Below, piece by piece: positions 2,578-61,223 of a stretch of DNA of 64,000 nt. Position 1 is the first letter of the stretch. Every line of letters starts with the position of its first letter. The notes under the pieces are model-generated. The model did not search any database, had not been told where the DNA came from, and saw only the letters and a program-made list of their open reading frames with translations. Made by a program: the position numbers and the translations under genes. Origin of the DNA: Gymnopus androsaceus JB14 (Eukaryota; Basidiomycota; Agaricomycetes; Agaricales; Omphalotaceae); the NCBI GenBank assembly GCA_009733575.1, contig ML769629.1, positions 39,241-103,240 of the forward strand. The letters are read 5' to 3'.

Positions 2578-2756
2578 CATCAGCAAAACCTGTATTTTCT
2601 CTGGAGAAAACCCATTCATTTGGGACATCTCTGGAGCAAGGTACCCTATTCCAGAGACCTCTAGAGATCTCTGGAGAAAATTGACAGTTTTTTTGACAGC
2701 TGTCAAGCTCCAGAGATCTCTGGAGACCTCCAGCAAAAATACAGGTTTTGCTGATG
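2578..2756. mobile_element. Foldback element E1 (CATCAG family, 179 bp)
   Basis: It begins CATCAGCAAAACCTGTATTT and ends with the exact reverse complement of this terminus. The interior is built of CTCCAGAG/CTCTGGAG palindromic words, so most of the element can fold on itself. TT occurs immediately on both sides (2576-2577 and 2757-2758), a 2-bp target duplication. The ends match those of the other CATCAG elements here, while the interior words are unique to this copy. Confidence 0.75.
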
Positions 2757-3764
2757 TTTAAGTCTCACTAGCATCACTACACAAGCATGATAATTGCATT
2801 ACAAGGCTGCTCACCACTGTTGTCACTGTATTCATGGAATATATGCATGTAATGAGTGCATACAGAGATATTTACATGTCCCATCTAGCTCTGGATGACT
2901 GTGTAGGCATGCCGCGGGGAGCAGGGAGGTCTACTGAGAAAGTAACTATGTTTACTGTACTTCAATACTCATAAATGTTGCACAATTATATTAGGCAATA
3001 TTGGCAATATACCCATGTACCACTCATGGAAACAGTGTAGAACATCTATACAAGACTTTATAAAGTCACTCTAGGTTGAAAGACTGCATATATGTAATAG
3101 AAATGATAAATTTATCATTGTTTTAAATGTATTTTTAATGGCGAACTTCGGTCAAGTTAGTGCAAGTTAGCGGACTTTGAATTTTTTGATGGGCCAAGTT
3201 AATGATAAATTTGCGTATATCTTGCGAGTTTGAAGCAATATACCGTGTCTAATGTATTGCATTACAGTTTGCACTCATTCCATGTCCTTACACAGCATAA
3301 GCACAAGGAATTCAATAACAATATATCTTCAAGCTGGTTGCAAGCAGATGATGAATGACGAGTCTAGAGCAACCTGAATTAAGCTTAATTCAGCTGCAGG
3401 GGCAACCTGTTCATTATTCCGCTCATATTATGAACATGATGACCATATACGGAATGATACAGTATGTGTATTACCGGTATTCGGCAACTGCGCTGCATTG
3501 ACAGTACCATGCATATATGGATGGTTCAGAGCTTATGTACAAGCTGGTACAATTCAAATTCACAATATGTATCACTTACATTCAGTGCAAGAGAATAGAT
3601 GGTTCCAGTCAATGGTAAAGCAAGTTGCAATCTGTGCATAGCTGTTATCATTGCTGAAGGAGCAGGTCCACCATAATGTTCCGGCTCTAACATTTCTACC
3701 TTTGTTGCTTTACTTTCCGATTGATCTATGTCTGAATTACTTAATTTAGCTACTAAATTGGATA
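2757..3764. other. Intergenic, no gene recognised
   Basis: Only short frames are present. A minus-strand frame of 99 codons at 3526-3825 runs into MITE copy 2 and shows no recognisable domain. Inverted CAAGTTAG words near 3150-3170 pair with those at 2430-2535. Confidence 0.4.
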
Positions 3765-4298
3765 CAGAAGCAAACCCAGAAGCAAAAATTCTAAGGAAAT
3801 TGATATATTCAGGGCAGTTTTGCATGGTTTCTCTTGATTCTTTTTTTTCTATAGGTTTTATAATATGCGAGGACTACAATCTGATTTTATCAGAATTTTT
3901 GAGGGCCTAAAAATGGCATCATAAATTAATTCATCTTTTGCTGCCAAAACCTGCCAAAAACCCAGAAGCGAAACTTTAGGCTAATTGGGCCTCTACATAT
4001 CCGCATCCCTTTGGGATTGCTTGTAGCATGGCTTTGCATGCTCATAGAGTAGATTGAATCTATTGTATGCCCAAAAATACCACAGATTTCATGGTACAAT
4101 TCATAATATTTCAAAACTGAGAAAAATCGCATTTTTGGCATAGTGTTCATATATGATCATATTATAATGGATTTATTATATCTAAGCTATGCTAGTCATG
4201 TCCAGAAACCCTTCTAGAGGTTGTAAAAGAAAACCGCATCCTAAAACACAATCTATACAACTCAAATATCAAATATTTCGCTTCTGGGTTTGCTTCTG
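3765..4298 (-). mobile_element. MITE-like element B, copy 2 (inverted)
   Basis: Reverse complement of the element at 1704-2257, with the same doubled CAGAAGC-type ends and the same interior. TA flanks it on both sides (3763-3764 and 4299-4300), consistent with a 2-bp target duplication. Together the two copies form a large inverted repeat around 1.5 kb of unrelated sequence, but separate flanks suggest two insertions. Confidence 0.65.
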
Positions 4299-5400
4299 TA
4301 TTTGACTTAAGTACTACACAAAATCACCTGCTTTGACCTTTATTACAATGATGCACCACAGTTGCACTAAACATTGATCTTATCACATTTCCAACCATTA
4401 CCTTGCTCTAATTGTTTGGAAATTCAAAAGGGTTCAACAATGAGCTCTAAGTACGAGTTGTAATAGTATCTAAGTAATAAACAAGAAGCTAATTAAATGG
4501 GTAGTGAGTAAGTAAGTAAATCCGAAAACAAGGGAAGGGATTTCGTTCTTACCAAGAGATGGTCTGCAAGTTAAATGTGCCATTGTATTCAAATAAGCTT
4601 GGAGCTCAAGTGAAACAGACTTTGAATAGGTATGTAGCTCATATAGATGATCTCATACTACATATGACATATTTTAATCTTAATGCAATGTACAGTAAAT
4701 GCAATTAAGTATTTCAACTGAAAGCTGCAAGCATTTCTGGGAAGAGAAATCACAGTAGCAGCTTACAGTACAACTGTGAAGGTGACTACTGTACCGTTAT
4801 GGTTAGAATTGCAGTGGAACTGATGTGTAATTAATTGAATACTTCAGTTGATCAATTCAACCACCGCGAGGCGTTGTGAAGGACATGAACTGAGTTCAAT
4901 TTGGGTGGCGCTGGCATAGCTGGCGAAGAAATATAAAGAAGTATATATGGCTCCATACCATATACAGGTACGGCCGTAATTATTATGGGTCGTATTTTGT
5001 ACAATGATCCCGTACCCATATCGTAATTTTCTCCAAAAAATGGATACAGTACAGGTATGAAGTGCCTGTATTATCCTATCGGGTGATATGTGCATGACTG
5101 TCCTGTACCCATACTGTCTTTGGAAAGCCTCGATCCAATGATGTTACAGTCATGGTCCCATATTATGGTACCCATAAGTGTATCAATATGGATATGATGC
5201 CGAGCCCTAGAAACCTAGTCTGGACTTGTGAAGGAGCTTCAGTAGAGTAATAATGGTGATCAAAATGTATTAAAACAGATTTACATTTGGTTGCTAGTAA
5301 AATGCAAGTTAGTTACATTTTGCCAAGCCTCAGCTGCAAGCGCGGAAAAAAAACAAGCTAACTTGACTGAATTGAACAAGTTAGTGAAACAAGTCACTTT
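4299..5400. other. Intergenic with GTACCCAT-rich palindromic segment
   Basis: No gene is recognised. Between about 4950 and 5210 the word GTACCCAT or its complement recurs and is bounded by a sequence resembling the last 60 bases of the window (GGGCT-GG…TATTATGGTACC), suggesting a second short repeat family. Its boundaries are unclear. Confidence 0.35.
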
Positions 5401-5403
5401 GCT

Positions 5404-5986
5404 CACACTCATAAAACAGTGAGCGACAGAGAGGAAATGAAAGTCATTGTGTTTTTTGCACTGCCAGCAAGTAGGTACATAAGTCCATTACAGTTCAGCA
5501 TTGTCTTTTGTTGGTTACCATATTGTAACAAAATATATTCTACCTCTGTTGAGCACCAGCTTGGCCCCAACTCTCAGACCATTTCTAATCAAAATCTCTA
5601 TAAAACGCATCACTCTAGGTCGATTATATGCTATATGTGATGCCCACTAGATGCTAAATGCTAAATGCCATTGACACAGTGTGCATAGGTATACGACTCT
5701 GGATGATTGATTCAACAATGTAAAAGGTTTAAAGTAGGAAGATAGGTATGTGGTATGCAGATCAGTCATAGCAGCATCAGACATAGCAACAGATCTATAG
5801 CTGGAAAGCAACTGACACTGACATGCAGCAAGTGGAAAGAAGGAAAAGTGGAAGCGCAGCTTCCACATGGATACAATCAGGTTGTACTGTTAAAGATGGG
5901 GAGGTGATTAAAAATGTAGGGAGTGGTATCTCAGGGCAGAATCAAATGTCCATGGGTGTTTGTTAAAGTAATGGTTCTTCATCCAT
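5404..5986 (-). repeat. 3' flank shared by GH16 copies A, C and F
   Basis: This segment, including the run near 5420-5480 and the block around 5720-5900, recurs downstream of GH16 copy C (18048-18620) and copy F (49997-50580). Its later part also recurs next to copies D and E. It marks the downstream part of the duplicated GH16 block. No coding potential is evident. Confidence 0.7.
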
Positions 5987-6473
5987 CTACTGAGAGTAGA
6001 TGTTGATACTTGAGATTTGCTGTGAAAAAGAAAGAGATTGAGGTCAGCATTCACTGAGCTAAGGCAAGGAGAAATGGAAGCTCACCCAGTATGCATCAGA
6101 GAAAGCAGATCCCATATTCTGAACATATGATGCAGCAGTCAAGTATCCAGTGGAAGATGCGCAACTAATCTGCTGACCACCTGCTCCGCTCATAGACCAA
6201 ACACCCTCAGTGAACATTCCACCAAGGTTGGTATCAATGATAAGTGCAAGGTTGGTAAAGTACATTCCAATTGCATAGTGGGTAACTCAGAAGAACATCT
6301 GAGCACCTCACAAGCTCAGATTGGGACTTCCATCAGTAGTATCACTCTGTACACTTCCCGCCGCCCAATATTTGGTGTAGATACTTGCCCGATGATCTGA
6401 ATGGCATGGGTACCACTTTGGGCATTAAACCCAGAGCCATAGGAGCTGGTCTGGGGAGAGGTAGCAGCATGTT

Positions 6474-6869
6474 CATCAGAAAAAACTGTTTTGGGCCCAG
6501 GAGGATCTCAGGTCACCTAGTCCTCTTAGGCAACCTGAGGCATCCTAGTTGGCCCAGGAAAAAGGGTAAAACTTTGGACACCTCAGGTATCCTAGTCATC
6601 CTAGGTGTCCTGGGGTATCCTAGGGCATCCTGGGGCATCCTGAGGCATCCTAGGATGGAAAACTTTATCCTAGGATGCCTCAGGATGCCCCAGGATACCC
6701 CAGGATACCCCAGGACATCCCAGGATCTCCCAGGACACCTAGGATGACTAGGATACCTGAGGTGTCCAAAGTTTTACCCTTTTTCCTGGGCCAACTAGGA
6801 TGCCTCAGGTTGCCTAAGAGGACTAGGTGACCTTAGATCCTCCTGGGCCTAAAACAGTTTTTGCTGATG
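6474..6869. mobile_element. Foldback element E2 (CATCAG family, 396 bp)
   Basis: Nearly perfect palindrome starting CATCAGAAAAAACTGTTTTG and ending …CAGTTTTTGCTGATG, with a core of CCTAGG/CCTGAGG/CATCCTGGG-type words. TT flanks it on both sides. Intact GH16 copies D and E show the uninterrupted sequence at this point, which defines the insertion site. It is almost identical to E8 at 60829-61223. No open reading frame of its own. Confidence 0.9.
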
Positions 6870-9308: not shown

Positions 9309-11726
9309 CCTCAGCAAAACCTGGGTGAGCTGGACAGAGCTAGACAGTGATGAGTTAGATTTGTGCTAGGTATGAAAACCAACCAAACAACAATCACCCC
9401 AATCAGATACAATCCAAAATGTTTAATTTAATGCAAGGAAGGAGGTTGTCAAAGGTTCCCTCGACTACTAATTGATTTGAAGAGAAAAGCACTTGAAAGT
9501 TGACACAGATAGTGTGAGATGAACAAGGTTCTATACTTGGAGGGAGGTTTTTGAAAAGCCAACTAATGTACGACGACATGCTGAACTAATCGAGGGGAAA
9601 GCAAACACCAAAGCACGGGTCAAGTATGCTGACTCAACAAATGACTTTGCATATCTAGGGAGCCTTTACGTCACCGTGCAATGATACTCCAACTCTCAGG
9701 GATTCCCATGAGTTACCTAACAAGCTTATACGACTGCCGTGCAAGTCACTCGAGTAGGCGTTTTTAACACACTCAGTGAAGAGTGGGCAAGGGGTAGAAT
9801 CTGTTGGTAAAGCTAGGTAACACTCTGAGAAGCTTCCTCCCTAAAACTAGACCAAGCCGACACCTGGGTCCAAGACCTTTCCTAATCAACAACGGGCTTG
9901 TCGAGGTGTGCACGTTAGGCTCCACCTGCAGTCCTAAGACTGATGTGACCTCTCTTCGAGATGAAAACCAGGAATGCTTGACTTAATAGCTGGGAAGTAG
10001 AATGAATTGCCTCAGTATTATCAAGGTTACAAGAAGGCCACCCATTTCAAAGGTTGCAGAGGAGGATGCAGATGCGTCTGAGTGTGTACGAATCACTACA
10101 GGTCCTAAGATAGAACTGTGTTTCAGGTATCAAGTCTAACTTGTTATTCCGAGATAGAATAGCTACCCTTATATACTGAGCGAGATATAATAAAATAGGA
10201 AAATGAGAGAAACTGAGCGAGATAGGATGAAACAGAGTAAGTAAAATAGAAAAAGATAAATAATGTCCATATATGCGTGTATACTATGGTTTTGCCTCGA
10301 TGTTTTCCTGCCTCATTCATTTGTCTTCCTTGATTGGGTCAACTTTTGGGATTTTGGTCCGAATCGACTCGAGTCATTTGCCCTTTTACAAGGCTCGCCA
10401 GTTACTTTAGCAGAACAGCCCTCGGAAGTATTTCTATGTTTTTCCTCACCAATGGGAGACTGGTTATTATCCCTAGTTCCGCGCAGTCTCGAGTCTAGAT
10501 GCCTGGTAGCATATGGATCTCGGTAAAACACTGAGGCTCAGATAGAAACACTCTGGTCCTTCCATGCTCTAGAAGTAGCTACAGCAAGTGGGTCATGCGG
10601 CTGCGTTGGACTGCCGCGGCTATCTGCCTGGGCATCTTCCAGTGAGTGTCAACTTTGAGGGCACCCGTTAGGGTACTTCCTCATCTCGGTCCACCTTGCT
10701 TGGTTTAATAAACTTGAGTGTCGTTTAGACTCCTCGGTGAGCTGATCGTGGAAGCGATGCCTCGTTAAGACTTTGATCCCTTGGGTATATTCTTTGATGA
10801 CCTAGCCTAGTATAACTGGTATGTGGGCTCGTTTATCTGCCTTGGTCAGCAACTTGTTATCCAACAAGCTTGCCTTGCTACACCATACCATGCATAGGAC
10901 TTTGATTGAGGCGCATTCACAAAGTTAAGTATGGTACCATTGCGCATACCATTACTCTGCAACCTCTTGGGTAGAATAGGTCCTTGGTAGATTTTAACTA
11001 TCAGCTCGGGCTCACTATAGTTCTCTTATTGACCGTGTTTTGTTACAAACAGAACCTAGGATTATTGGTTCTGCGCAGTTCTAGCCTTAGCCAAAAAATT
11101 GGCGTATCAACAGCTCTGTGCAGCGCTCATAGCAACCATAGCACCCATAGCAAGGTCCCCATGTGTCCAGAGCTATGGACTGCTATGGATCACTATGGAT
11201 TGTATATTTCATGGCATGTTGTCTGTCAGCCATTCAATTTAAAACCCAATTCAAAACTAAATATATCATTGTTTCACAATCACTTCCCTCACTCAGCAGC
11301 GGGGAAACTTGCTGAACCAAAATTCAAATAATCATAATATTATAATATTATATGGGCATGTTCATAGTAGTACAATAGTGTGGCGAAACTAGTATAACTA
11401 AAGTACTAGTTCTTATATATACTGAAGTAAGCAGTAGCCCTCGCCAAGATATTGGAGATGTCAAAAGAACCAAAAATATCCAAAACCAAAGTTGCAACTC
11501 AGTGTTGACTTGGAAAAAAAATTGGGGAAGTTGCGAGAACGCATCCTGGATTTGTCAACTCTTATATATGGTTGGTGGGAGAGAATGACAGCTGTCAAAT
11601 GCCTGACAGTTGGTTTGAACACTCAGAAATATCACAGGAGCTCATAGTAAGCCATAGCAGGCCATAGAAGCCATAGTGCTCTACAGTACTATGGCTGCTA
11701 TGACCATTACCCAGGTTTTGCTGATG
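9309..11726. mobile_element. Long CATCAG-family element E3 (2.4 kb)
   Basis: The left end reads CCTCAGCAAAACCTGGGT and the right end is the reverse complement of CATCAGCAAAACCTGGGT, with TA on both sides (9307-9308 and 11727-11728). The same locus in blocks C and D is continuous, so this whole stretch is inserted. Subterminal sequence at 11100-11200 and 11640-11710 is made of CATAGC/GCTATGG palindromic words. The 9420-11080 interior has no recognisable transposase; it has TATA-like sequence near 10170 and may be another element nested inside. The longest frames (60-115 codons) show no known motif. Confidence 0.6.
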
Positions 11727-41874: not shown

Positions 41875-42234
41875 CATCAGGAAAAACTGTTTGGGCCTTG
41901 GATGGCCTGAAGTTAACCTCAAAGTAACTCAAAGACACCTAGGCCACCTAGGCCACCTAGGTTGCCTAGGTTCCTTTAGGATGACCTAGGAATTAGGGGG
42001 TGGACTTTTGACAACCTGAGTCACCTGAGAATACCTGAGAAAACCTGAGAAAACCTGAAGAACCTGAGAAAACCTGAGGAAACCTGGAAGAACCCTGAGG
42101 AAACCTCAGGCAGCCTGAGATAGTCCTAGGTAACCTAGGAGGCCTAGGCTGCCTAGGCCATCCCAAGTCCAGCCCCTGTAACCTAGGAGGCTTAGGTTAC
42201 CTAGGCTATCCTTGGCCGACCATTTTTCCTGATG
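41875..42234. mobile_element. Foldback element E4 (CATCAG family, 360 bp)
   Basis: CATCAGGAAAAACTGTTTGG at the left, reverse complement of CATCAGGAAAAATGGTC at the right, with CCTAGG/CCTGAGAA words inside. TG flanks both sides. Mirrored as E7 at 48526-48892. Confidence 0.8.
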
Positions 42235-42496: not shown

Positions 42497-43552
42497 CATC
42501 AGCAAAAATGGTCTGGGCCTTGGATGACCTGAGGATACCTAAGGACTACCTAGGTCTCCTAGGACACCAGGACACCAGGACACTAGGTCTCCCAGGCTTT
42601 CATAAGTCCACCCCCTTATTCTGGGCTTCTTGAAGGAATCCTGAGGAAACTTGAGGGAGCCTGAGGAAACCTGAGGAAGCCTGAGGAAGCCTGAGGAAAC
42701 CTGAGGAAGCCTGGGAAGCCTGGAAGCCTGAGGCAACTTGAGGTAACCTAGGGATACTTCTGCTGAGTTATAACAACCCAAAAAATAATTCTCATACTTT
42801 ATTATTCAGCTGTATCTTTTTGCTCAATTTCCACATTTATATCACTTAAACCTTATTATCTTATTAAACTCATGCATTTTTGACTTATTTCAAAGTGAAC
42901 TTATTTTTCGAGACTCATTAATGTTTTACTGGCCTTAACTTATGACTCGGAACACCTCACTTAAGTATTTTTAACTCAAGTTCAAGTAGACTAACATATT
43001 TATCAAGTTAACTGTTACTTCATGATGAATCTGATTTGACCCCATCAACAGAGTTTTAATTGTACGCAGTCTACAGGCGCCCACGCGGTTTGGCGCTTAT
43101 TTGGGCGCTTATTTTACGCAATTATATGTTGATAAATTCCAATAATTGGGGTGTCTACTGTTCTTTTAATGATATTAATACACATTATAATTCAATGTAC
43201 TAGTTTATTGAAGCTATTTAGCTTGTAATCCTAGTTCTAGATAAATCTCAGGCTGTCCCAGGCTTCCTCAGGCTTCTCAGGCTTGTCCAGGCTGCCCAGG
43301 TTCCCTCAGGTTGTTACTCAGGTTGTGTTCAGGTTGCACTTAGGTTGTGCTCAGGTTGTGTTCAGGCTGCAAGGAGGCTCCCTCTGGTGATATCAGGATT
43401 TGGGCATATTCCTAGGTAGCCTAAGTCACTCTCAAGTGATATTAGGATTTGGGCATATTCCTAGGTGGTCTAAGTCACCCAGGTTGCCCAGGTTGCCAGG
43501 TCATATTAGTCTAACCTATAGGCTATCCAGGCCCAGACAATTTTTGCTGATG
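42497..43552. mobile_element. CATCAG-family element E5 (1.06 kb)
   Basis: The ends are CATCAGCAAAAATGGTCTGG and the reverse complement of CATCAGCAAAAATTGTCTGG. Subterminal regions are rich in CCTGAGGAA and CCTAGG words, and the middle 42780-43240 is AT-rich and unique. TG flanks both sides. Removing the element plus one TG rejoins an open frame, confirming the boundaries. Mirrored as E6. Confidence 0.85.
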
Positions 43553-44237: not shown

Positions 44238-44385
44238 CTGTACTCTTCCGACCAACTGTTCACAGATTTCGGAAAAATACAAAATAAAAATACCGAAAAA
44301 ATCCGAAAATTCGAGAAAAAATTAAATCCGATGTCCAATTATTTGGACGTGACGCGTGACTGAACAGTTGGTCGGAAGAGTACAG
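44238..44385. mobile_element. MITE D, left-arm copy (148 bp)
   Basis: Perfect terminal inverted repeats of about 24 bp starting CTGTACTCTTCCGACCAACT; TA on both sides. The interior is AT-rich with GTCCAATTATTTGGAC. TA target and size suggest a Tc1/mariner-type MITE. Mirrored at 46359-46507. Confidence 0.8.
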
Positions 44386-45812: not shown

Positions 45813-46358
45813 TAGACGATTTTCAGCAAGATCAAAGTATGGAATCCTGAGTTAAATGATCAGATAAATTTCTTTGAGCAAGATTCTTGTCACTTGCCTT
45901 GTCCAGCCATCAGTTTTGGTTGTTGGGAGGTCATATCGGGAGGGGACCCACTCTGAAATTGTATAAAATTTTTCATGGATTGGATGAAGCTGTGCAACTG
46001 GCACAACTTTGTGTGTAGTGTATTTATAGACAACTTCCAGAGAAATTGAAGCTTCTTCACTGCGAGACTTCCTGATCATTCCATGCATCAATTTCTGGGA
46101 AGCTAAGTATTCGAGGAATGGAGAAGAGTGTTTTTCCACATGATCAACAATGTTCATGGCTATTTGCATATCTGCAAAATGCAGTGCAGGAATATCATGG
46201 ACAACAAGGTGTGAGAATATTGAGAATGATTGTTCCCCAGGCTCTGCCAATGGACCATAAGGGCCTAAGCATAAGAGGCCTGAAGCCGGCTGTAGCCAAA
46301 CATAATCTTCTTCTAGGGGGTATACAGCGGGCCCAGTGATGACTTCTGGGATGACATA

Positions 46359-46507
46359 CTGTACTCTTCCGACCAACTGTTCAGTCACGCGTCACGTCCA
46401 AATAATTGGACATCGGATTTAATTTTTTCTCGAATTTTCGGATTTTTTCGGTATTTTTTATTTTGTATTTTTCCGAAATCTGTGAACAGTTGGTCGGAAG
46501 AGTACAG
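46359..46507. mobile_element. MITE D, right-arm copy (149 bp)
   Basis: Mirror of 44238-44385 with the same perfect inverted repeats and TA flanks. It supplies the first residues of the frame 46388-45852. Confidence 0.8.
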
Positions 46508-47198
46508 TAATCCAGGGGCTAAAAGGGAGTAAGAGAGGGAGAATTCAAGCTGCATATACTTAACTTGTACCTACCCCAAGTGCACTGACACTCCAATTAG
46601 GCAGTAACATTCTTGCAGTGCCTATGTCAGTTGCCTTGGAGATGGAATTGTTAAGAATTGTATAGGTCACAAGTATTGCAACACTTACATAGCGGTGCCA
46701 TAGATAAATCATGACTAATGGATTTCTGTGAAACTGCTGCAGCAAGTGTTGCAGTGGAATCAATTCTGTGAGATTTGTGAGCAAAGAGCAAATTGAAAGC
46801 ATTATGGGCTTGCCAACAAAGTCAACATGAAATATGGACTGACCACTGTGAAAGATTAATGCTGGTATGCTGCCTTGTACAACTCCAAAAAGTTGTGCAA
46901 GTCCAGGAGATCTGAAAGAGATTCAATTGGTGAGATGCCTGAGTACTTCTCATGAACTTGCCGATGTGCAGAGTAAAAATCCAAGTCACTCATGAATACC
47001 TGTTTTTTTTTTATGAACAAAAAAACGCAGGAACATCAACAGAGGCCATACCCCATCTGCTCCAAGACCATCATACATCACAGCAGTGAAACATGTATTA
47101 GGAAATTCCACTAGTTCCACAGTATCAACCACACAGACAGAAGTCTTGACTATTATCTTGACATGATTGAGGGGATGGTCAAGAGTGACCATCTCGCA

Positions 47199-48261
47199 CA
47201 TCAGCAAAAATTGTCTGGGCCTGGGATAGCCTATAGGTTAGACTAATATGACCTGGGCAACCTGGGCAACCTGGGTGACTTAGACCACCTAGGAATATGC
47301 CCAAATCCTAATATCACTTGAGAGTGACTTAGGCTACCTAGGAATATGCCCAAATCCTGATATCACCAGAGGGAGCCTCCTTGCAGTCTGAACACAACCT
47401 GAGCACAACCTAAGTGCAACCTGAACACAACCTGAGTACAACCTGAGGGAACCTGGGGCAGCCTGGACAAGCCTGAGGAAGCCTGAGGAAGCCTGGGACA
47501 GCCTGAGATTTATCTAGAACAAGGATTACAAGCTAAATAGCTTCAATAAACTAGTACATTGAATTATAATGTGTATTAATATCATTAAAAGAACAGTAGA
47601 CACCCCAATTATTGGAATTTATCAACATATAATTGCGTAAAATAAGCGCCCAAATAAGCGCCAAACCGCGTGGGCGCCTGTAGACTGCGTACAATTAAAA
47701 CTCTGTTGATGGGGTCAAATCAGATTCATCATGAAGTAACAGTTAACTTGATAAATATGTTAGTCTACTTGAACTTGAGTTAAAAATACTTAAGTGAGGT
47801 GTTCCGAGTCATAAGTTAAGGCCAGTAAAACATTAATGAGTCTCGAAAAATAAGTTCACTTTGAAATAAGTCAAAAATGCATGAGTTTAATAAGATAATA
47901 AGGTTTAAGTGATATAAATGTGGAAATTGAGCAAAAAGATACAGCTGAATAATAAAGTATGAGAATTATTTTTTGGGTTGTATAACTCAGCAGAAGTATC
48001 CCTAGGTTACCTCAAGTTGCCTCAGGCTTCCCAGGCTTCCCAGGCTTCCTCAGGTTTCCTCAGGCTTCCTCAGGCTTCCTCAGGTTTCCTCAGGCTCCCT
48101 CAAGTTTCCTCAGGATTCCTTCAAGAAGCCCAGGAATAAGGGGGTGGACTTATGAAAGCCTGGGAGACCTAGGTGTCCTGGGTGTCCTGGGTGTCCTAGG
48201 AGACCTAGGTAGTCCTTAGGTATCCTCAGGTCATCCAAGGCCCAGACCATTTTTGCTGATG
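47199..48261. mobile_element. CATCAG-family element E6 (1.06 kb)
   Basis: Mirror of E5, with CA on both sides (TG on the other strand). A few indels distinguish it from E5. Confidence 0.85.
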
Positions 48262-48525
48262 CAGGAAGCAGTCCGGGATATGGTACGAAGGATGTTCATA
48301 TCTCCAAAGGGGATAGAGCGGTACTAGAATCTACATCATTAGCATCCAACTGAGATGGTCCCAAAACGATGCACACAATTCCCAGATACAGTTGCCAACT
48401 CTTTGTGAGAGCGAATCTGGTTATGAATATGAGTTATATGCTGGTCTCTACCGATATTGTTGAATTGTCCGCCAAAAATCTTGAAGTGGCACTCATTTTT
48501 GAAAATTGAATTGCTAAAGGTAACA

Positions 48526-48892
48526 CATCAGGAAAAATGGTCTGGGCCAAGGATAGCCTAGGTAACCTAAGCCTCCTAGGTTACAGGGGCTGGACTTGGG
48601 ATGGCCTAGGCAGCCTAGGCCTCCTAGGTTACCTAGGACTATCTCAGGCTGCCTGAGGTTTCCTCAGGGTTCTTCCAGGTTTCCTCAGGTTTTCAGTTCT
48701 CAGGTTTCTCAGGTTTTCTCAGGTTTTCTCAGGTATTCTCAGGTGACTCAGGTTGTCAAAAGTCCACCCCCTAATTCCTAGGTCATCCTAAAGGAACCTA
48801 GGCAACCTAGGTGGCCTAGGTGGCCTAGGTGTCTTTGAGTTACTTTGAGGTTAACTTCAGGCCATCCAAGGCCCAAACAGTTTTTCCTGATG
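48526..48892. mobile_element. Foldback element E7 (CATCAG family, 367 bp)
   Basis: Mirror of E4, with CA on both sides. It carries the same CCTAGG-type palindromic words. Confidence 0.8.
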
Positions 48893-49312
48893 CAGAATGA
48901 GAGATTGAGAATTGACAACATCTTTCCAGTAGTGCTTGTACCGTTCACTGCCAAAATCTGCCTGGAAAGCTTCCATTCCTTCAAAAAATTCAATTGTGCG
49001 CGGATCTTGGTGATTGCTGAGAGCAAGATGATAACTTGATTAGATGCCTGAAATGCGGGGTACAAACTGTCGGGTAAAAATGCTATATAAGATAAGACCG
49101 AGGCCGAGCCATCCGGAATCAGAATCTGGTTTAGTTCCAGTTGCGTAGGTGTACCTCTTGGCGTAATCCCCCACATCGATAAGGAGTGGACAACGTTCCT
49201 TGCAGAGTTGGCTAGGCTCTGGCGACGTGCTGGAGGCCCGGACGACAACTATCCCATCCCCTTCTCGATCAATCCTTCTAGCGTAGATTAGACTATTGTA
49301 ACGAGAGGTCAT

Positions 49313-49996: not shown

Positions 49997-50581
49997 GTTG
50001 CGTTTGAAATTTGAAAGAGTGGGGAGAGGAAATAAAGGTCGTTTCTTTTTTTGCACCACCAATAAGTAGGTACATGAGGCCATTCCAGTTCAGCACTACT
50101 TGCGTTGTTGTTGTCTTTCGTTGATTATTGTACTGTACTGAACTATGCTCTACCTGTCGAGCAGAGCCAGCCTGGGCCCGACTCTCAGTCTACTTCTAAG
50201 CAAGACTTCCACAAAATGCATCATTCTATATGCTATATGCGACACCGACTAGATGCTAAATGCTAAATGGTGGGCGTAGCTATACGACTTGGATGATCAA
50301 TTCAACTATGTAAAAAGTTTAAAAGTAGGAAGATAGGTATGTGGTATGCAGATCAGTCATAGCAGCATCATACGTAGCGACAGATCTATAGCTGGAAAAC
50401 AACTGACACTGACACGCAGCGAGTGGAAAGAAAGAAAAGATAGCAGGAAGTGCAGCTTCCACAGGGATACAATCAAATTGTACTGTAAAGATGGGGAGGT
50501 GATTAAAAATGTAGGGACTGGTATGTCAGGGCAGAATCAAACGTCCAGGGGTGTTCATGAAAGTAATGGTTCTTCATGCAT
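49997..50581 (-). repeat. 3' flank of GH16 copy F
   Basis: Matches 5404-5986 and 18048-18626. Non-coding. Confidence 0.65.
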
Positions 50582-52252
50582 CTACTGAGAGTAGATGTTG
50601 ATACTCGAGATTTGCTGCAAAAAAGAAAGAGATCAAGGTCAGCATTCGTTGAGCTAAGGAAAAGGAGGAACGGAAGCTCACTCAGTATGCATCAGAGAAA
50701 GCAGATCCCATGTTCTGAATGTATGATGCAGCAGTAGAGTATCCAGTGGAAGAAGTGCAACTCATCTGTTGGCCACCTGCTCCGCTCGTAGACCAAACAC
50801 CCTCAGTGAATGTTCCACGAAGGTTGGTATCAATGATAAGCCCAAGGTCAGTAAAGTACATCCCAATCGCACAGCTGGTTGCCGAGAAGAACGTCTGAGC
50901 ACTCCACGAGCTTGGATTGGGACTTCCACTGGTAATATCACTCGGTACACTTCCCGCCGCCCAGTAGTTAATGTAGATCCCTGACTCAATGGGCTGAATG
51001 GCATAGGTACCTCCTCCGGCATTAAACCTAGACCCATAGCAGTTGGACTGGGTAGAGGTAGCAGTGCAGGTTTGATCATGGTCAGCATAAGCGTAGCAGT
51101 CGAGATTGGATGCAACATTGATGGTGGAGTCGACGAGGGCGTTGACATTGTTCTGAGTGATGGAGCAGCCTTTGGAAGTGTGGATGAACATGACGTTGTG
51201 AACGTATTCGTTGACACCTTTGATGATGTTGATTTTACCTCCGGCGGGCCAGGTTCCGCCACCGAGGAGCCAGAGGGTGGGCCAGCTGGAACAAAGAGTA
51301 AGTATTAGAGTGAGGATGGGAAGGCAGGTTCCTTACATTCCACATCCAGTAGGCATATGGACGATATCAAAGATCATCATTGTACCAACATTGAAGGTCT
51401 CGGAGGAAGGTCTCGGAGGAAGGTCTCGGAGGAAGACAACTTCATTGAGTTTCGGAGGTTCACATTCTTGGTGGTGTCGACCCACATGATAACATTGCCA
51501 TCAGAGTAGACGGAGATTAGGTTGTTGACGTAGTTGGTGGCACCACTGTTGTCAGAGGCACCGGAGGAACTGTCGATGGAAAGACGAAGTGAGTATAGGG
51601 TGGACAGGTTATGGGAAACGGAGAGTTGCTTACGCAGTAAACTAGTTAATCAGGTTCTGACCGGTGAGAGATTGGGAGAGAGTCCAGCCGTTGGAAGAGG
51701 AGCCAGTGGCTGCTGCGGAAGTGGTACTCGCTGGAAAGAGACCAAGTCAGTGCGTTGATTCAGGAGTCGTGCACGGCTATCAACTCACAGGTCACAGAGG
51801 CAACAGAAGTCGAGGCGGAAGTAGAAGCGACGGTGGAAGAGACACCAGAACTGGTTGGAGCAGGGGCAACGGCTTCGGCTACGCTGACGGAAGTAGATGA
51901 AGAGGAGTCAGCGGAAGAGCTGGAGACGGAAACAGAGCTCGAAGAGGCGACAGAGACAGAGCTACTGCCACTGGAGCTCGCCCAAGCCCAGGCAATGTTC
52001 ACTGAAATGAAGTTGTCAACCACTGAAACGCCGGTTGGAAATGAGGTTACAGGTACTACTGCTCAACGTTCCAGAATTCAACGCTTTAAAAGCACTAGTT
52101 GATAAGTAGAGGTTGCTGTCTGCACAGACCTTGCAGTTATCGGTGGCATTGATGTCGCTAGAGGCACCAGTGCCCGTGCTGGTGACGGTCAGCTAAAGCC
52201 GAGTTAGAAAAAATCAAAATCATGAGCAAGCAACACACGTACGTGTTGCCAA

Positions 52253-52263
52253 CAATCAGCAGT

Positions 52264-52266: not shown

Positions 52267-52327
<61 letters not shown>

Positions 52328-52827: not shown

Positions 52828-55800
52828 TCAGGCTCTTTGGTGCGCTGGACATTGTAGGAGAAAGTGGTAGACTGTTTCTGGCTCTCGTTTGCATGCCAGG
52901 CAATGCAGTGAATCAATCTTTCCTATGCGATGGAGATGGGAGTAAAGGTAGCAGTGGCCGGTTCGCAGGTGTACGAGTATGCTGATATGGGGTTTCACGA
53001 GGTCTTTGGTGATGGTTTGAAACTTCCGTGCTACCGACGTTGCGTCTCCCTCTGCTACTTTCTGGAATCTCATGAATCTGGGGGATTGGCGGAACATGTC
53101 GTCTCGGGTTTTGTTGAGTTCTTTCGCGAACATCTTCCGGGCAGCTGAGCTACTCATTGGAAGGGATTTTCGGAAGGTATGGGGTAGTAGCTGTTTTGGG
53201 CTCGACCCGCGTACAGCTGCTTCCTTGGCCTCCTCATCCGCTGCCTCGTTCCCTTCGACACCTTCATGTCCTGGTACCCATCCCACCGTGATCACAAGAT
53301 TTGGATGATGTCGTTTAAGTCAAGAGTATAGGGAGTGGAAGTGGTCCATTAAGTAGTGCGCTGGTCCAGTTGCCATTGAGCCCGTTGCTGAGATTGCCGC
53401 TGTGTTATCTATCCAGAGGGAGACTGTTGAGACATTACGTTCCTTCTTCAGCAGCTCCAGACCCAGGGACGGGCCCACCGACTCTCCTTCAAACACCTCG
53501 TGCTCTGTTTCCTTGCCTAGCTGCATCCGTAGGGATGATATCCTCCTTCCTTCCTTGCACAACACTGCTGAGCTTCCCACCATTCCTTCGATCCCTGATC
53601 CGTCTGTGAAGAGTTGGTGCTCTGCATCATCTTCCTCAATCTGCTTCAGAGCGTCTTCCTTCCCTTCCCATTGTCGAATCCGAATCTCCGATTCCCAATC
53701 CGCACACTTCCTTACTGCCTGTCTCTTCTCCATCTTCTTTGGGTTTAAGTTGTACGTGTTCATCAGGTCGTGGAGCGGCGAGAAGTGCGATTTGATGAAC
53801 TTTCTGCTAGCTGCATCCTGGGCGTGACTGTTGAGTGGGTGCGTGGGCGGGAGTGTGGCTATTCGGACAGCTGCTCTTTGGCGGGTCATGTCTATGGCTA
53901 ACGGCATGGGTAAGAGATTTGGTTGGATATCGAGCAGGTTGGTTGGGGTGGATGGGAGAGCTCCTGTGATCATGAGTGAGACTTGTCGTTGGATGGAGGT
54001 GAGTTTTCGTGTGATGTCGCGCCCAGCTTCGCGTTTCAGCCGCTTCTGTCCTTTGTTTGTCCCCGGGTGTCGTTGTGGAACGAGAAAGACATCAGAGGCG
54101 TACAGCATCCCGCTGCGTAGCATCGCAATGTACCATTCCCGCGTATACTCGGAGGTGGCCCCTGCCGTCACCCTTGATAACCGTCTGAATTGTGCGAGCC
54201 AAGCCTGTCCTTTGGCTATCGCTGCTGAACCCTGCTCTTTGAATCGTAACTCGCTGTCCAGTATCACCCCTACCAGCTTTATTCCTTCTTTTCTCTTTAC
54301 CACCTTCCCTCCCACCTTGATATCTGTTCCTCGGAGCGGGATTGTCTTTTTGGGGTGGACCAGATGGCGGGTGCGCTTCCTGGTGTAGTTGGCTAGTTGG
54401 AACTTCTCCAGACCAAAGGAGCAGTTATGCTCCCTGGCCCATTCAAGGACTCCCCCTGGATCGTTCATCAGTTGTTCGAGTCGGGCGTGGGTTTCTGAGA
54501 ATGAGTCGCCCTGTGCGACGAGTTTTGCGTTGTCCATGAAAAGGAGGCCAAGGTCTTTCGTTTTTTGGTTTATGAGTTTGAGCAGACCTGCGTTGTAGAA
54601 GAGGTATTAAACGACTGTGAATGGGTCTCCTTGGTCTAGACCTCCTGGGGGTTCGAATGGTTCGGAGGTGAAGTCGTCAAATAGGATGCAGGTCTTCCTG
54701 CTTGCGTATCTCCTCCTTATCCATTCGACTATCTCCTTTGGGACACCAGCCATCCTCATCTCGTGGTATAGCACTTCCAGGTCCACACTGGGATAAGCTC
54801 CCTTGACATCCAGTGCTAGCGCTGAGACCACCTTGCCCTTCCTCCATGCCTTCTTAACCGTTGATATGAATAGGTGGAGCGAGTTGGTTGTACTTTGCCC
54901 TGGCCTTCCACCAAACTGCATTTGTGGGAGAAGGCCATGTAGTTCTGCTCCCCTGACCGTGATATCTGCGATGACGCTGTTAGAGGGACGGCCCCAGCCA
55001 CTGGACAAAACCAAAGGCCTCCACATTCCCAGAAGCTGGTAGTTTGGTTTTCCTGGTCTTTGAGCGACGAAGGTCTTGTTCGACTGCCAGTCATTGGGAT
55101 AGTGTGGGATGGTGAACGTGGCTCGAAGGAGGGGGCCAAAATGGGGTGCAACAAGCTCAGCACATTCCCTAAATAGGATGTTGGGAAGGGAGTCACTTCA
55201 AGTCGCCTTGTAGGGTTTCATTCTTCTAAATGCCCTGATGATCTGGTGGTTGGATGGTAATTGGAACTTCCAGGCTGCTGAGGGGTATTCTGCATCTGCT
55301 GGAGCTAGGGGAGCGGGAGGGGCTGGGGGAAAGAATGATTCTTTGAATGCCTCGGCTTTACTCGCATTGTCCGATACCAACTTCTTGCGACCTCTTTCCA
55401 CAACCTCCAGATCTGGGACTCGGGACATTCCCCCATCCGTGAAGCCTCTCTTCGTCAGCTTTGCTGCATCCCAGTGGTTGTCACTACGTAGCTCTAGTAG
55501 GAAATTATCCCAGTGTCTCTTCTTCGTATATTCCATCTCCCTGGCCAAATCCTGTCGCGCTCTTCGGTACTCCTCATGGATAGGGTGAGCTGGAATGTGA
55601 CGCTTGTGGTGGGATTTGTTTGCTAAGTTTTTCTTTTTTGTGTTTAGTTGTTTGAGCTCCTCATTGTACCATCGTCACGCATACGGGGATGGTTTCACCA
55701 TGGGGACATGTTTCTCGATGAGCTTCACGATGGTCTCATCAAGGACTGCAAAACCTGCGTCGAATTCCTCTCTCGTCTGGATTTCAGCTGGTGCGTCTAA

Positions 55801-56660
55801 TTTCTCAAACTCGTCTTTCAACTCCTCTCTAAAGGTATCCCAGTCTACCTTCCTCCAGTTCCTCTTGGGATGCTCCGCCGCTAGATCAACTGCCAGAGAG
55901 ATTTTTGTGATGATTGCATAGTGGTCGGTTAAGGGGGGTGGAGGGAGGGGTCAACGGTGCAGCTTAGGATTTGGTCGAGGAGGTGCATGCTACAAAAGAC
56001 ATTGTCCACACGCATCTCGTTTTTGGTTCTGAGGGATTCGAGGGTTGGGGTACCTGGGGCTAGGGTCATCTGCATGTTGTTGGAGGAGAAGAGGTCAATG
56101 AGGAGTTTGGCAGCTCTCAGGTTGGCTGGAGTGAATAGGTGCGAGTTATGTGGTTCGTCCCACATGGGATGGTGTCGGTTGAAATCTCCTAGCCAGACAT
56201 AATGGAGTGGGGCGCGAGTGGTTAGGTGAGCGTCGGTACTGCGTAAGTAGTCTCGCAGGGTTATCAGGGCACTGTCGTGTTCACTGTCAACGTATAAGTT
56301 GAAGAGTCATAGTGTGCCGTAAGTTCCTGAGATTTGGACCGCAGTGATATCGGGATGGCGGATCGGGATTGGCTTCCAAGAGCCGGTGGATAGCCTCTTG
56401 CTTATCAGCAGGACTGATCTCGTTTTTGTTTTGCTTTCTTCGCTATCGAGGTGTGTGGCGGGGTAGATGGAGTGGAACTTGTAGATAGATTTTGTGTTTC
56501 CAAACTTGTTGATGTTTGGCTCCTGCATCGCCAGGATGTCAAAGGATTGGTCAGTGTTAAAGAGCATGTTGAATTGGGCTTGGGGGGATTTGTTGAGGTT
56601 TTGTTGCCAGATCTTTAGGTGCTGCATCGGTGCGTGTTCGTTTTGTTGTTCGTTATTCAT
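52828..56660 (-). pseudogene. LINE ORF2 (endonuclease, reverse transcriptase, RNase H), inactivated
   Basis: The start MNNEQQNEH at 56660 overlaps the end of ORF1. APE-type endonuclease motifs are LAMQEPNI, WLGDFNRHHPMWDEP and LTDHYAI. RT motifs are FGGRPGQSTTNSL, LALDVKGAYPSVD and GGLDQGDPF; the catalytic box reads FMDN instead of FMDD. RNase H has LFTDGSG, LWIDNTAAI and GHEGVEGNEAADEEA. In-frame stops lie at about 56305, 55678, 55206, 54607 and 53318, and one frameshift in a C run near 55930. All five stops can be explained by C-to-T changes of CGA or CAA codons. Enzyme role when active: target-primed reverse transcription. Confidence 0.9.
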
Positions 56661-58789
56661 TCTGATGGAGTGTTTCGGCGCGCTGGGCTAGGGGGGAGGG
56701 ATGTGGATCTCATTCTGGTGGGGAAGGTTGGAGGGGGAGGATTTCGTGTATCCTCTCGAACATCGTCCTGGGTACGAAGCCAGTCGCCATATCCCTGTCG
56801 TTCCAGCTCTTCCAGTTCTCTAATCTCCTGTGTGGATCGTCCTGCTCTGATCATCCAAGGACCCATATCCGCTAGAAATGTGTCCATTGTACGTTGTTTG
56901 CCAAAGTTTCTGGGTGTGACAGTGGCGGCTGCGCGTGTTTTTGGGTTTTGCGATCCGCCCCCTTCGCCTCTTATGCCCCCTGCTAGTCTCCCTGTGCCGC
57001 GTCTTTCAACTCTTTGCCAGCCTTCATCCCTCTGGCGTACTTCTTCCCTCCACGAGTCATCGAAGTCTTCTTTATGATACGACTTCACTTTTGTCCAGGT
57101 CTCAGGCTCGTTGGTGACAAAGAGCCTGTAGTTCGAGCCTGCTCTTCGGTTGTGGAGGGATGCTACTCGGCGGGTGAATACTGGGCAGTTTCTGTCGGAT
57201 GCTGCGTGTCCCCTGCGCTCGCACAGGACACATTTGAGCTCTTCTATAGGTGCCGTACATGTCGAGGTTTGATGTGGTTCAGCGCATCTGGCACACACAT
57301 CGCCGCTGTGTTTGCATTCCCTTGCAAAATGGCCGAACCTCTGACATTTCAGGCATTGTTTGGGGTCGGAGAGGGACTTGTGCGTTTCGAGGGATTTGTT
57401 CTGGACAATGACTCCGTTCTGGAGGATGTGGTTCGCTGTCTCTGGTGAGTTGAAAGTGAAGATTGCATGTGCGACTTTCTGATTGGTTTTTCTGCGTTCG
57501 GGTGGTTTGATCCAGCACGCCCTTAGAATCGAGCCTCCTTGCAAGCTGTTATCTGTTTCGATCAACCTCAGCACATTGTCTTCATCCAGTTCCTCAGAGA
57601 CTGGGACCATCTGCACCACCACCTCGTACGAGTCGAAGTGAGCTGTGATCTCTCCCTCCCACTTCTTCGACCATTCGTCTAGTCTGTTTGCACTCCTTAG
57701 CCATTCCATCCCTTCCAGTGTTGCCATATACAGCAATGCTCCCCCGGGAATCTTTCTGGCTGAGATGAATTTGGTCGTGGATGTGCCGTTCGTGGCGCCC
57801 ATAATGCCAATCTCCTCGAGGCCGTGGTTTGCTCTTTCCACAAGCTGCTTCTCTCCCATCCCTTCTAGGAGTTCTGTCCCGCTGGTGCGGTCCTTGGGTT
57901 GGATGATTATCTTCCACTGGTCGGCGTCAGCTTCCAGAATGGCTCGGGTGTGCTGAGCGCGAATCACATTGCCCACGGCCTTGTTGGCTACTCTTTCTGC
58001 TCGTGCTTCAGCCCCTACTTTCAGAGCTTCGGCAAAGGTCATGTTGAGTTCGCCGTGCGAGTTAACGACTGTGTCGAGTTTGTCTGCTGCTTGGACCCAT
58101 CTCCCAAACAATTCCCTGTCTATCCCGCTGGTTCCCATCATCTTTTCCTCGAGCTGTTTCATCTTTGCCGTGGCCTCTTTCATCTTCTTCGCCGCTTCAT
58201 TGACCCGTTCGTGAGCTCTAACTGCGATGGATGCTGCTGCCGATTCCACTGATGATAGTTTGTTTTCCAGCGATTCAATGGTGTTGTCAAGCTGTTTTTT
58301 GACCTGGTCACCCACTATGTCTGCGAAGTGGGCTTCATCTTGTATTTTGAGGGTTGTGTAGCTTTCTGCGATTGAGTCTAGTTTGTTTTCAAAGGACGTG
58401 ATGACGGCATTGGCCAGGCTATCCGCGACATCTCCTGACAGGAGACCTTTGGGAGAGGGGGATTCGCTTGCTCCCATGCACCTCTCTATGCCCTTGTAGA
58501 CCTTCTCCGTGATCCGTTTGACCATCTCGTCTTCCTTCGCGTTTTCGAATTGTTCTTTCAGGAAGATGGCTGCCCACTGTACTCTCTGCCATTCTTCCTT
58601 CTTTGCTCGTATGGTTGCGCTGCCATCCGAGTATGTCTTCGCCGTTTCGATCATTCTGCCCAGGCAGTCTTGGACCTCATTTCTATGGTCCGAGATCCAT
58701 CCGCATTTCCGAAGGTTTTTCTCTGCTTCTTGCGTTCTCTGACTGGGTGTGCGCTGCGAGGACAGCGGTGTGGATGGCGCTGTGTCCAT
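56657..58789 (-). CDS. LINE ORF1 protein (zinc-knuckle RNA-binding)
   Basis: A 710-codon open frame starting at MDTAPSTPL. The N-terminal half is rich in predicted coiled coil (about residues 125-225). A central RRM-like fold is plausible at 290-460. Three zinc knuckles lie at 479-535: CLKCQRFGHFAREC, CARCAEPHQTSTC and CVLCERRGHAASDRNC. The C-terminus is basic and disordered. It would bind LINE RNA and form the ribonucleoprotein. The stop is at 56657, overlapping the ORF2 start by 4 bases. Intact although ORF2 is dead. Confidence 0.85.
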   Translation of the reverse strand: MDTAPSTPLSSQRTPSQRTQEAEKNLRKCGWISDHRNEVQDCLGRMIETAKTYSDGSATIRAKKEEWQRVQWAAIFLKEQFENAKEDEMVKRITEKVYKGIERCMGASESPSPKGLLSGDVADSLANAVITSFENKLDSIAESYTTLKIQDEAHFADIVGDQVKKQLDNTIESLENKLSSVESAAASIAVRAHERVNEAAKKMKEATAKMKQLEEKMMGTSGIDRELFGRWVQAADKLDTVVNSHGELNMTFAEALKVGAEARAERVANKAVGNVIRAQHTRAILEADADQWKIIIQPKDRTSGTELLEGMGEKQLVERANHGLEEIGIMGATNGTSTTKFISARKIPGGALLYMATLEGMEWLRSANRLDEWSKKWEGEITAHFDSYEVVVQMVPVSEELDEDNVLRLIETDNSLQGGSILRACWIKPPERRKTNQKVAHAIFTFNSPETANHILQNGVIVQNKSLETHKSLSDPKQCLKCQRFGHFARECKHSGDVCARCAEPHQTSTCTAPIEELKCVLCERRGHAASDRNCPVFTRRVASLHNRRAGSNYRLFVTNEPETWTKVKSYHKEDFDDSWREEVRQRDEGWQRVERRGTGRLAGGIRGEGGGSQNPKTRAAATVTPRNFGKQRTMDTFLADMGPWMIRAGRSTQEIRELEELERQGYGDWLRTQDDVREDTRNPPPPTFPTRMRSTSLPPSPARRNTPSE

Positions 58790-58942
58790 GATACTACAAA
58801 CTGCTCAATTTAGGTATATATTTGCTGTACTAGCTCCTAAATAGTACAGAGAATATATATTTTGGGTTTTGTCGGTCAGATTGTCGCGTTAGTGGCATGT
58901 GAATTTTGTCGGGATGATGGTAGTTAAGGATGAAGGAGCCTC

Positions 58943-58956
58943 CAATCAGCAGTGTT
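58943..58956. repeat. LINE target-site duplication, right
   Basis: CAATCAGCAGTGTT; exact copy of 52253-52266. GH16 copy F resumes directly after it. Confidence 0.9.
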
Positions 58957-59055
58957 GCCAGATATAGGTGGCACTGAGGCCAGCAATCGTATCCGTGTCT
59001 TGAGAGACAATTCCGCAGAGGGAGTGAGAGTGAAATAACCAAGAAAAAGACAATA

Positions 59056-60668
59056 CAGTGGGTCAAAAAATTGTCCACATGTTTGACACTTTTGGAAAGA
59101 TCCAGGATTTGCGAGATAGATATTATATATATCAAAAAGTGATTAGTAAGAACTAAAGAGCCCTGGATCCTGGCTCCATGTAAATATCTGGTTTACCTTG
59201 TTTGGATCAAAACTCACTGAGATATAAGCAATTCAATTCAATGACCCATGTGGACAATTTTTTGAGTTTGTATTGTAATAACTTTGCTCCACAATTGTGA
59301 GCCTCATCAATGACATCATGACTCAGACTGTATGGTGATGTCATATAGACATCATAATGATATCATACAAGCTATCTGACATATATATAAGCATATCTCA
59401 CTGATTTATGGTTCTAACAAAATTATGAGACCTCTCACACCCTCTCAGAAACACAATGTCCTCTCTCTGCTCCACACTGGAGCTTCTACCAGGGAAATCT
59501 CTGCTCAGACAGGTGTATCCAAGTCAAAGATTGCTTCTTTGGCCAAAGAAGCACTCCCAGACAAGGAGAGCCATCCAGCAGGCCGCCCTAGAAAGCTCTC
59601 TACTACTGATGAAAATGCTGTCATCAAACAAATCTCCACTGGCAGGGCCAAGAATGCGGCCCAGGTGGCCAAAAACATTAATCCACTCCTCCCCCATCCA
59701 GTCCCTACTCAGACCATAAGAAATACCCTTCACAAAGCCAATGTACAACCTCACAAAAAGCAGAAAAAGCCCAAGCTCACCCCTGGTCACAGGAAAGCTC
59801 GTTTGGCATTTGCTCAGAAGTATCTGGAATGGACTGTAGATGATTGGAAGAGGGTTGCTTGGTCAGATGAGACCAAAATCCGGCTCAGATGGGCAGCAGT
59901 ATGTATGGGGAAGAAAGGGGAATCAGAAGGAGAAAGAGGCATCAAGGAAACTGTAAAGTTTGGGGGAGGAAATATTATGGTGTGGGGATGTATGGGATGG
60001 GAAGGTGTGGGGAATTTGGTGGATGTTGAGGGGAGGATGAATGGGGAGCAGTATGTTGACATTTTGGATGGCAATCTCTTGGAAAGCATGGAAAATCTGC
60101 TTCTTGATCCAGAGATAGCCATCTTTCAGCAGGATAATGACCCTAAACACACCTCCAAAGTTGCTGCCAAGTGGTTTGATGACCATGAGATCAACTGTAT
60201 GGATTGGCCTGCAGTCCCCTGATCTCAATCCCATTGAACATCTCTGGACAACCCTCAAAAACAAACTTAATGAATATGACAAGCCACCCTCTGGAGCTTG
60301 GGAGTTGTGGGACAGAGTGGCAGAAAAATGGGGGAAGTTACCGAGGAAGATTGTCAGAGGTTAATTAGGAGCATGCCAAGAAGGCTCAAAGCAGTTGTGA
60401 GTGCACATGGAGGTCATACCAAGTATTAGACTACCTTTTCTGTATTTCAATGTGCATATCAAAAAATTGTCCACATGGATCATTGAATTGAATTGCTTAT
60501 ATCTCAATGAGTTTTAATCCAAACAAGACAAACCAGATATGTACATGGAGCCAGGATCCAGGGCTCTTTAGTCCCCGCTAATCATCTTTTGATATATATA
60601 ATATATATCTTGCAAATCCTGGATCTTTCCAAAAGTGTCAAACATGTGGACAAATTTTTGACCCACTG
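59056..60668 (+). mobile_element. Tc1-type DNA transposon (1.6 kb)
   Basis: Terminal inverted repeats of about 210 bp (59056-59265 and 60459-60668) starting CAGTGGGTCAAAAAATTGTC, flanked by TA at 59054-59055 and 60669-60670. Copy D of the GH16 gene shows the empty site. The inner end of each TIR carries an inverted copy of the outer end (CATGTGGACAATTTTTTGA), giving a double transposase-binding arrangement. It contains one damaged transposase gene. Confidence 0.92.
59425..60429 (+). pseudogene. Tc1-type transposase, two frameshifts
   Basis: Starts MRPLTPSQKHNVLSLL with a helix-turn-helix of the form GASTREISAQTGVSKSKI. The catalytic domain shows WSDETKI, FQQDNDPKHTS and, after a shift, SPDLNPIEHLW, giving a DDE triad with the 34-residue spacing of Tc1. 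A 2-bp deletion near 60216 (PAVP instead of PAQSPD) and a second shift near 60345 break the frame; the C-terminus MPRRLKAVVSAHGGHTKY is read in another frame to the stop at 60427-60429. It would cut and paste the element at TA sites; now probably inactive. Confidence 0.9.
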
Positions 60669-60828
60669 TAGATTGGAGAATGAGGCTGTTCGTTCATGGA
60701 CTAGAGGGATGGTGGTTGGTGAAGCTGTGATATTGAATGCTGGATTGCCCACGCGCGCAAGGCTCAGGATGGTGTTGAATTATGTTGTCGAGATATATTT
60801 GAATGCGCCAACACAAGGACAAATGGTA

Positions 60829-61223
60829 CATCAGAAAAAACTGTTTTGGGCCCAGGAGGATCTAAGGTCACCTAGTCCTCTTAGGCAACCTGAGGCATCC
60901 TAGTTGGCCCAGGAAAAAGGGTAAAACTTTGGACACCTCAGGTATCCTAGTCATCCTAGGTGTCCTGGGAGATCCTGGGGTATCCTGGGGCATCCTGGGG
61001 CATCCTGAGGCATCCTGGGATGGGAATTTTATCCTAGGATGCCTCAGGATGCCCCAGGATGCCCCAGGACATCCCAGGATCTCCCAGGACACCTAGGATG
61101 ACTAGGATACCTGAGGTGTCCAAAGTTTTACCCTTTTTCCTGGGCCAACTAGGATGCCTCAGGTTGCCTAAGAGGACTAGGTGACCTTAGATCCTCCTGG
61201 GCCCAAAACAGTTTTTGCTGATG
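60829..61223. mobile_element. Foldback element E8 (CATCAG family, 395 bp)
   Basis: Nearly identical to E2 in ends and interior. TA flanks both sides (60827-60828 and 61224-61225). Copy E shows the unoccupied site. Inserted 31 bp after the GH16 start codon. Confidence 0.9.

Follow-up and report, generated by a model that had tools for sequence, protein, structure and literature searches.

We examined a stretch of 64,000 nucleotides from Gymnopus androsaceus JB14 (assembly GCA_009733575.1, contig ML769629.1, positions 39,241 to 103,240), here called the window, in which a preliminary description had pointed to eight copies of an element with CATCAG ends. We conclude that the eight elements are very probably non-autonomous members of PlavakaB, similar to miniature inverted-repeat transposable elements (MITEs), which would be moved in trans and combine fixed tips with subfamily-specific interior words. 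The assignment is made because the published termini and duplication length of PlavakaB equal those observed here, and because elements with a PF18759 (Plavaka) transposase and similar tips are present in the same genome.

Inspection of the window placed all eight elements at the coordinates listed below, each bounded by CATCAG(N)AAAA tips and flanked by a matching dinucleotide on both sides. The left end of the 9309 element, which reads CCTCAG, was the sole departure noted from the CATCAG tip. Coordinates, ends, and the 2-bp duplications of the 6 independent elements (TT, TT, TA, TG, TG, and TA) had all been given correctly in the preliminary description, including the deviating CCTCAG. The motif CATCAGVAAAA, with at most one mismatch, occurred 22 times in the window compared with 5.9 expected, and the maximum in 100 shuffles was 12. 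The elements, referred to by their start positions, and the repeat nested in one of them are as follows:

2578..2756: non-autonomous element, 179 bp, CTCCAG/CTCTGGAG word subfamily, duplication TT
6474..6869: non-autonomous element, 396 bp, GGGCCC / CCTAGG-CCTGAGG subfamily, inverted repeat almost end to end, duplication TT
9309..11726: non-autonomous element, 656 bp plus nested repeat, CATAGC/CCATAG words, duplication TA
9348..11109: nested 1.76-kb high-copy repeat, separate from the CATCAG element, TG..CA ends, 4-bp ACAG flanks
41875..42234: non-autonomous element, 360 bp, CCTAGG/CCTGAG words, 10-bp-period array, duplication TG
42497..43552: non-autonomous element, 1056 bp, CCTGAG words, 10-bp-period arrays, duplication TG
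47199..48261: mirrored copy of 42497-43552, on an arm of an inverted duplication
48526..48892: mirrored copy of 41875-42234, on an arm of an inverted duplication
60829..61223: non-autonomous element, 395 bp, GGGCCC subfamily, arm-to-arm pairing 97%, duplication TA

No transposase was found inside the window copies, which span about 0.18 to 1.06 kb when the nested repeat is excluded. The mirrored pair lies in a 3.4-kb inverted duplication (41466-44896 vs. 45843-49312, 98.5% identity, 0.95-kb spacer), each arm of which holds 2 CATCAG elements; the duplication could be of biological origin or an assembly effect.

The 9309 element had been taken as one continuous element of 2.4 kb, of which the ends and the duplication stood and the length did not. 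Query positions 40-1801 of 9309-11726 behaved as a separate repeat in the genome search, in which at least 39 other loci matched over most of its length with 91% to 95% identity (40 of 1,282 candidates scored). This repeat starts with TGATG, finishes with TATCA and has ACAG on either side, which suggests that it is probably a solo long terminal repeat (LTR). The remaining 656 bp fell into a cluster with copies of 655 and 659 bp that lack the interruption.

Ends and target duplications across the genome

The genome searched was the window's own assembly, which consists of 83.3 Mb in 934 contigs. The 16-base end CATCAGVAAAAMYKGT was present 1,114 times in forward and 1,139 times in reverse orientation, compared with 0 and 1 for the reversed control. 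The preliminary description was right in proposing a true mobile family whose CATCAG ends are constant. Ends of individual subfamilies were also numerous, with 186 + 177 occurrences of CATCAGMAAAAACTGTTTTGGGCC, 250 + 268 of CATCAGSAAAAAYKGTYTGGGCC and 61 + 53 of CATCAGCAAAACCTGGGTGARCTGGA, and 0 for each control.

Each end was paired with the closest end facing it, up to a distance of 1.3 kb, or 3 kb inside the window, using the window and 126 genome stretches, 40 of which were fetched for pairing. Identical 2-bp flanks were observed in 47 of 66 distinct end pairs, a count that retains some unlike and possibly mispaired ends; shuffling the partners 1,000 times gave 6.2 matches on average and never more than 16. 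When the 2 mirrored window copies were excluded, the flanks matched in 45 of 64 pairs, and a 3-bp identity was seen in a single one of the 66. The 2-bp duplication that the preliminary description had wanted checked was thereby found in most of the pairs examined. The commonest duplicated dinucleotides were AA (9), TT (8), TA (7), CA (6), and TG (5). Tc1/mariner elements insert at TA targets only, and membership in that group was rejected since TA makes up just 7 of the 47 matching duplications. It was also noted that a 142-bp element with a TG duplication lies inside an apparent short CATCAG element in L045 (about 239-481), a nested insertion within the same family.

Empty sites were sought for the 60829, 6474, and 9309 elements by comparison with paralogous stretches that lack the element. 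The paralogues of the 60829 site, near 37100, 8655, and 29258, carry a single TA and the element has TA on each side, which is a clean 2-bp duplication. The 6474 element was missing from 4 paralogues, near 19107, 27842, 35735, and 51064; here, the joined flanks with both TT copies kept equaled the paralogues in length and the site-adjacent bases had diverged, so that the duplication was not cleanly shown. The flanks of the 9309 element were heavily diverged from its paralogues. The window contains 5 paralogous gene-like stretches (about 5974-6473, 18624-19107, 27347-27833, 35253-35735, and 50569-51064), with 80% to 87% identity to the first, and the frame at 18691-19404 in one of them had no Pfam match at E 0.01.

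Relation to Plavaka transposons

Plavaka elements are CACTA/EnSpm-like DDE cut-and-paste transposons of the CMCT clade. In the sections of Kojima (2025, PMC12730594) consulted here, PlavakaB families are described as having CATCA..TGATG termini and 2- or 3-bp duplications, with hosts in Agaricomycotina that include one Gymnopus species, and PlavakaA families as having TGT..ACA termini. The window elements lack the latter, and membership in PlavakaA was therefore rejected. They resemble PlavakaB, as described in these sections, in their termini (apart from CCTCA at the left end of 9309), duplication length, and host group, and in the co-occurrence of PF18759 elements in the genome. They differ in that they are short, with no transposase found inside, and in that their longer ends and words matched no single autonomous element in the sequence read. 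Since the ends match those of a known family with a described transposase, the preliminary claim that the elements fit no known family falls. Mobilization as non-autonomous EnSpm/CACTA elements by a PF02992 transposase instead of Plavaka is highly improbable: the genome contains 33 PF02992 matches, whereas the rust-fungus families described in the same sections have CAC..GTG ends and 3-bp duplications, a comparison by description in which the CATCAG ends and the single 3-bp match found here speak against membership in fungal EnSpm/CACTA.

The PF18759 profile gave at least 150 matches genome-wide (123 of 255 candidates scored), and element ends were traced around the top lineage, represented by C183, C646, and C128. 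Three elements of 6.5 to 6.6 kb had CATCAGGAAAA ends enclosing a PF18759 transposase, and 2 of them had 2-bp duplications:

C183:36183-42800: Plavaka element, 6618 bp, ends CATCAGGAAAATCG / CATCAGGAAAACCT, extended CATCAGGAAAATCGTTATATGC / CATCAGGAAAACCTTAATATGC, duplication AA
C646:3323-9872: Plavaka element, 6550 bp, duplication TT
C128:177041-183645: Plavaka element, 6605 bp, no duplication

All 3 are autonomous PF18759 relatives with ends similar to those of the window elements. The C183 element contains a frame of 571 amino acids (L033) that matches PF18759 at 6.6e-81, and both motifs of PlavakaB transposases were recognized in it by eye, C(2)C as CAEC and H(3-4)H as HFLNH, or H(3)H. An internal CATCAGAAAAA site in C326 and C128 at first resembled an element end; for C128, alignment to C183 and C646 put the end further out. 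Homologues of PF18759 numbered 2,998 proteins at E ≤ 0.001 among 7,997 scored candidates, and the best 120 listed come from host species that we take to be agaricomycetes.

In a second Plavaka lineage, the end CATCAGGAAAAG was located 1,560 bp (C119) and 1,708 bp (C127) beyond the transposase match, and CATCAGGAAAAGSMTCC occurred 3 times genome-wide. The opposite end was looked for in C127 and not found, and C119 has CATCAG ends at 77232 and 77721 too, beyond the 78173 end that was taken as its 3′ end. The transposase regions of C127 and C119 aligned at 65.5% over 1,355 bp, yet their end words differ and are partly palindromic, and alignment of the first 500 bp covered just 42 bp.

Distinct subterminal words are present in the full-length elements. 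The TATGCA/ATGCAA words of C183 occur 7 times per terminal 220 bp, all pointing inward, and 4 times elsewhere, and of the C128 end words 10 of 11 at the 5′ end and all 6 at the 3′ end point inward. A subterminal repeat score, defined as repeated 7-mers in 200 bp, was compared with 300 shuffles. All 12 end stretches of the 6 window elements scored above every shuffle, where the 2 stretches of the 2578 element coincide (179 or 180 bp). Three of the 7 full-length Plavaka ends also exceeded all shuffles, and 2 more were reached by 1 and 3 of 300. Of 58 internal control bins, each compared with 60 shuffles, none scored above all of them, and for 4 bins no more than 3 shuffles reached the score.

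Several observations weigh against the PlavakaB assignment. Matching duplications were absent from 19 of the 66 end pairs and from the C128 element, and the empty-site comparison was clean for 1 element of 3, being unclear for 6474 and 9309. The repeat score was ordinary at the C183 5′ end (54/300) and the C646 3′ end (44/300), and 12 more copies of the C128 end words lie elsewhere in that element, 10 of them within one 0.9-kb stretch. The PlavakaB label is given on termini and duplication length rather than on a transposase tree. Furthermore, the window subfamilies and the full-length Plavaka copies have only about 11 terminal bp in common. Long transposase-bearing members, for which the preliminary description had proposed a search, exist with a similar tip. 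The portion of the genome that was read contained no Plavaka element with the longer window-subfamily ends (CATCAGCAAAACCTG, CATCAGMAAAAACTGTTTTGGGCC, CATCAGSAAAAAYKGTYTGGGCC). Two candidates were rejected: the C183 end at 22205, near a Plavaka match, proved to be part of an intact element of just 270 bp, duplication TA, and the 6.2-kb stretch C7:50460-56681 had unlike ends and flanks and no duplication.

An end 3′ of a Plavaka match in C184 opens like that of the 270-bp element, and no partner end was identified for it. Among the ends checked 3′ of Plavaka matches in C183, C184, and C622, no CATCAGCAAAACCTG-ended autonomous copy was established, and no 5′ partner was paired with the ends at C60:96981 and C129:124804. 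The short shared tip and the lack, in the sequence read, of a transposase-bearing copy with the longer ends would also be expected of a new superfamily with an unrelated transposase, whose CATCAG ends resemble PlavakaB by chance. We consider this very unlikely, given that the tip, the duplication length, the genome, and the layout of a tip plus family-specific words are all the same as in Plavaka. The PlavakaB assignment is carried chiefly by the census of duplications and by the full-length elements.

Other sequences in the window

The remaining frames and matches recognized in the window were the following:

About 24.7 kb: frame that by eye looks related to the NTPase at 32477-33766, contains a run of N
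32477-33766: NACHT / NPHP3_N NTPase frame
52828-58801, minus strand: RNase H, zf-RVT, and CCHC zinc-knuckle matches, all 3 under the Pfam curated cut-offs, possibly pieces of a non-LTR retrotransposon
59380-60219: Tc1-like transposase frame (HTH_Tnp_Tc3_2), 0.6 kb from the 60829 element

Interior words, hairpin arms and mobilization

Clustering of the 66 copies at 75% identity over 60% of the length resulted in 20 sequence clusters, of which 11 held a single copy and the other 9 between 3 and 15 copies. The interior words are specific to subfamilies and partly palindromic. The palindromic look arises because these words stand in both direct and inverted orientation. In the parts of PMC2613891 consulted, plant CACTA elements are described as having conserved tips and subterminal repeats that vary between families and can form palindromes, and TNPA of En/Spm as binding the subterminal repeats. 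The window elements share with these plant elements (En/Spm, Tgmt) the constant short tips, the family-specific subterminal repeats, and the palindromes, and differ from Tgmt, which has a CACTA tip and a 3-bp duplication, in their CATCAG tip and 2-bp duplication. The layout that had seemed strange in the preliminary description is thus, according to these parts of the source, a known CACTA trait.

In folding, every one of the 54 elements of up to 700 bp fell below the mean of its own 8 shuffles (42497 and 9309 were left out as too long). Arm-to-arm pairing reached at least 88% in 10 of the 54 and was 75% at most in the remainder. The suggested folding of almost the entire element into a hairpin applies to 6474 and 60829, in which 88% and 97% of the bases were arm-paired, and not to 2578 and 41875, with 40% each.

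The patterns of arm divergence were studied in the hairpin subfamily, which consists of 9 copies that align over the whole element. The same arm was on average 94.8% identical between copies, so that conservation of only 15 to 25 terminal bases, as had been described, is seen between subfamilies and not within this one. The 2 arms within a copy were 92.2% identical and opposite arms of different copies 93.4%. Twelve columns represented fixed differences between left and right arms, and of the copy-specific changes 82 affected one arm and 1 affected both. The arms are not being homogenized and mutate independently, as indicated by the one-arm changes, the fixed differences, and the lower identity within copies. 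Hairpin repair, one of the 2 suggested routes of interior growth, is accordingly unsupported in the one subfamily tested. The other, replication slippage, retains support solely as gains and losses of units of about 10 bp that separate some copies, which fit slippage within a 10-bp-period array, judging from the sequences. One copy had also lost about 100 bp of its centre.

These unit changes, together with pairing over 88% to 97% of the length in one subfamily, are what could be cited for foldback-like hairpins whose interiors grow or are kept palindromic by repair or slippage in the absence of a transposase. This explanation is extremely unlikely considering the independent evolution of the arms in that subfamily, the rarity of extensive pairing among the folded elements, and the exact 2-bp duplications.

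As PlavakaB members, the elements would be mobilized by a Plavaka transposase made elsewhere in the genome, which would recognize the CATCAG(N)AAAA tip, excise the element and reinsert it at a mostly A/T-rich dinucleotide that becomes duplicated. The words inside the tip may act as subterminal repeats to which a transposon-encoded protein binds. The near-perfect hairpins mainly represent one subfamily amplified from a master copy rather than structures formed anew in each copy. A tentative extension, which we regard as possible but doubtful, is that the catalytic tip stays fixed while the word arrays, which in several subfamilies have a 10-bp period and are partly palindromic, are repeatedly replaced as addresses, such that one transposase class serves many MITE families with their own word-binding proteins.

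In the sections of PMC8290104 consulted, non-autonomous elements of Marasmius oreades are classified with reference to autonomous families, whose end motif and duplication length serve as the criteria, and Plavaka is described as abundant and termed understudied. The basis of classification is the same here, in another species and compared by description only. No description of the present MITEs was found in the open literature, which was screened mostly at the level of listings and did not include subscription papers, Repbase, or supplements. With this assignment, an abundant repeat set of a mushroom genome, with more than 2,000 exact 16-base ends, is attributed to Plavaka, and its constant tips with differing subterminal words provide a natural series for asking which features other than the tip a CACTA-type transposase requires.

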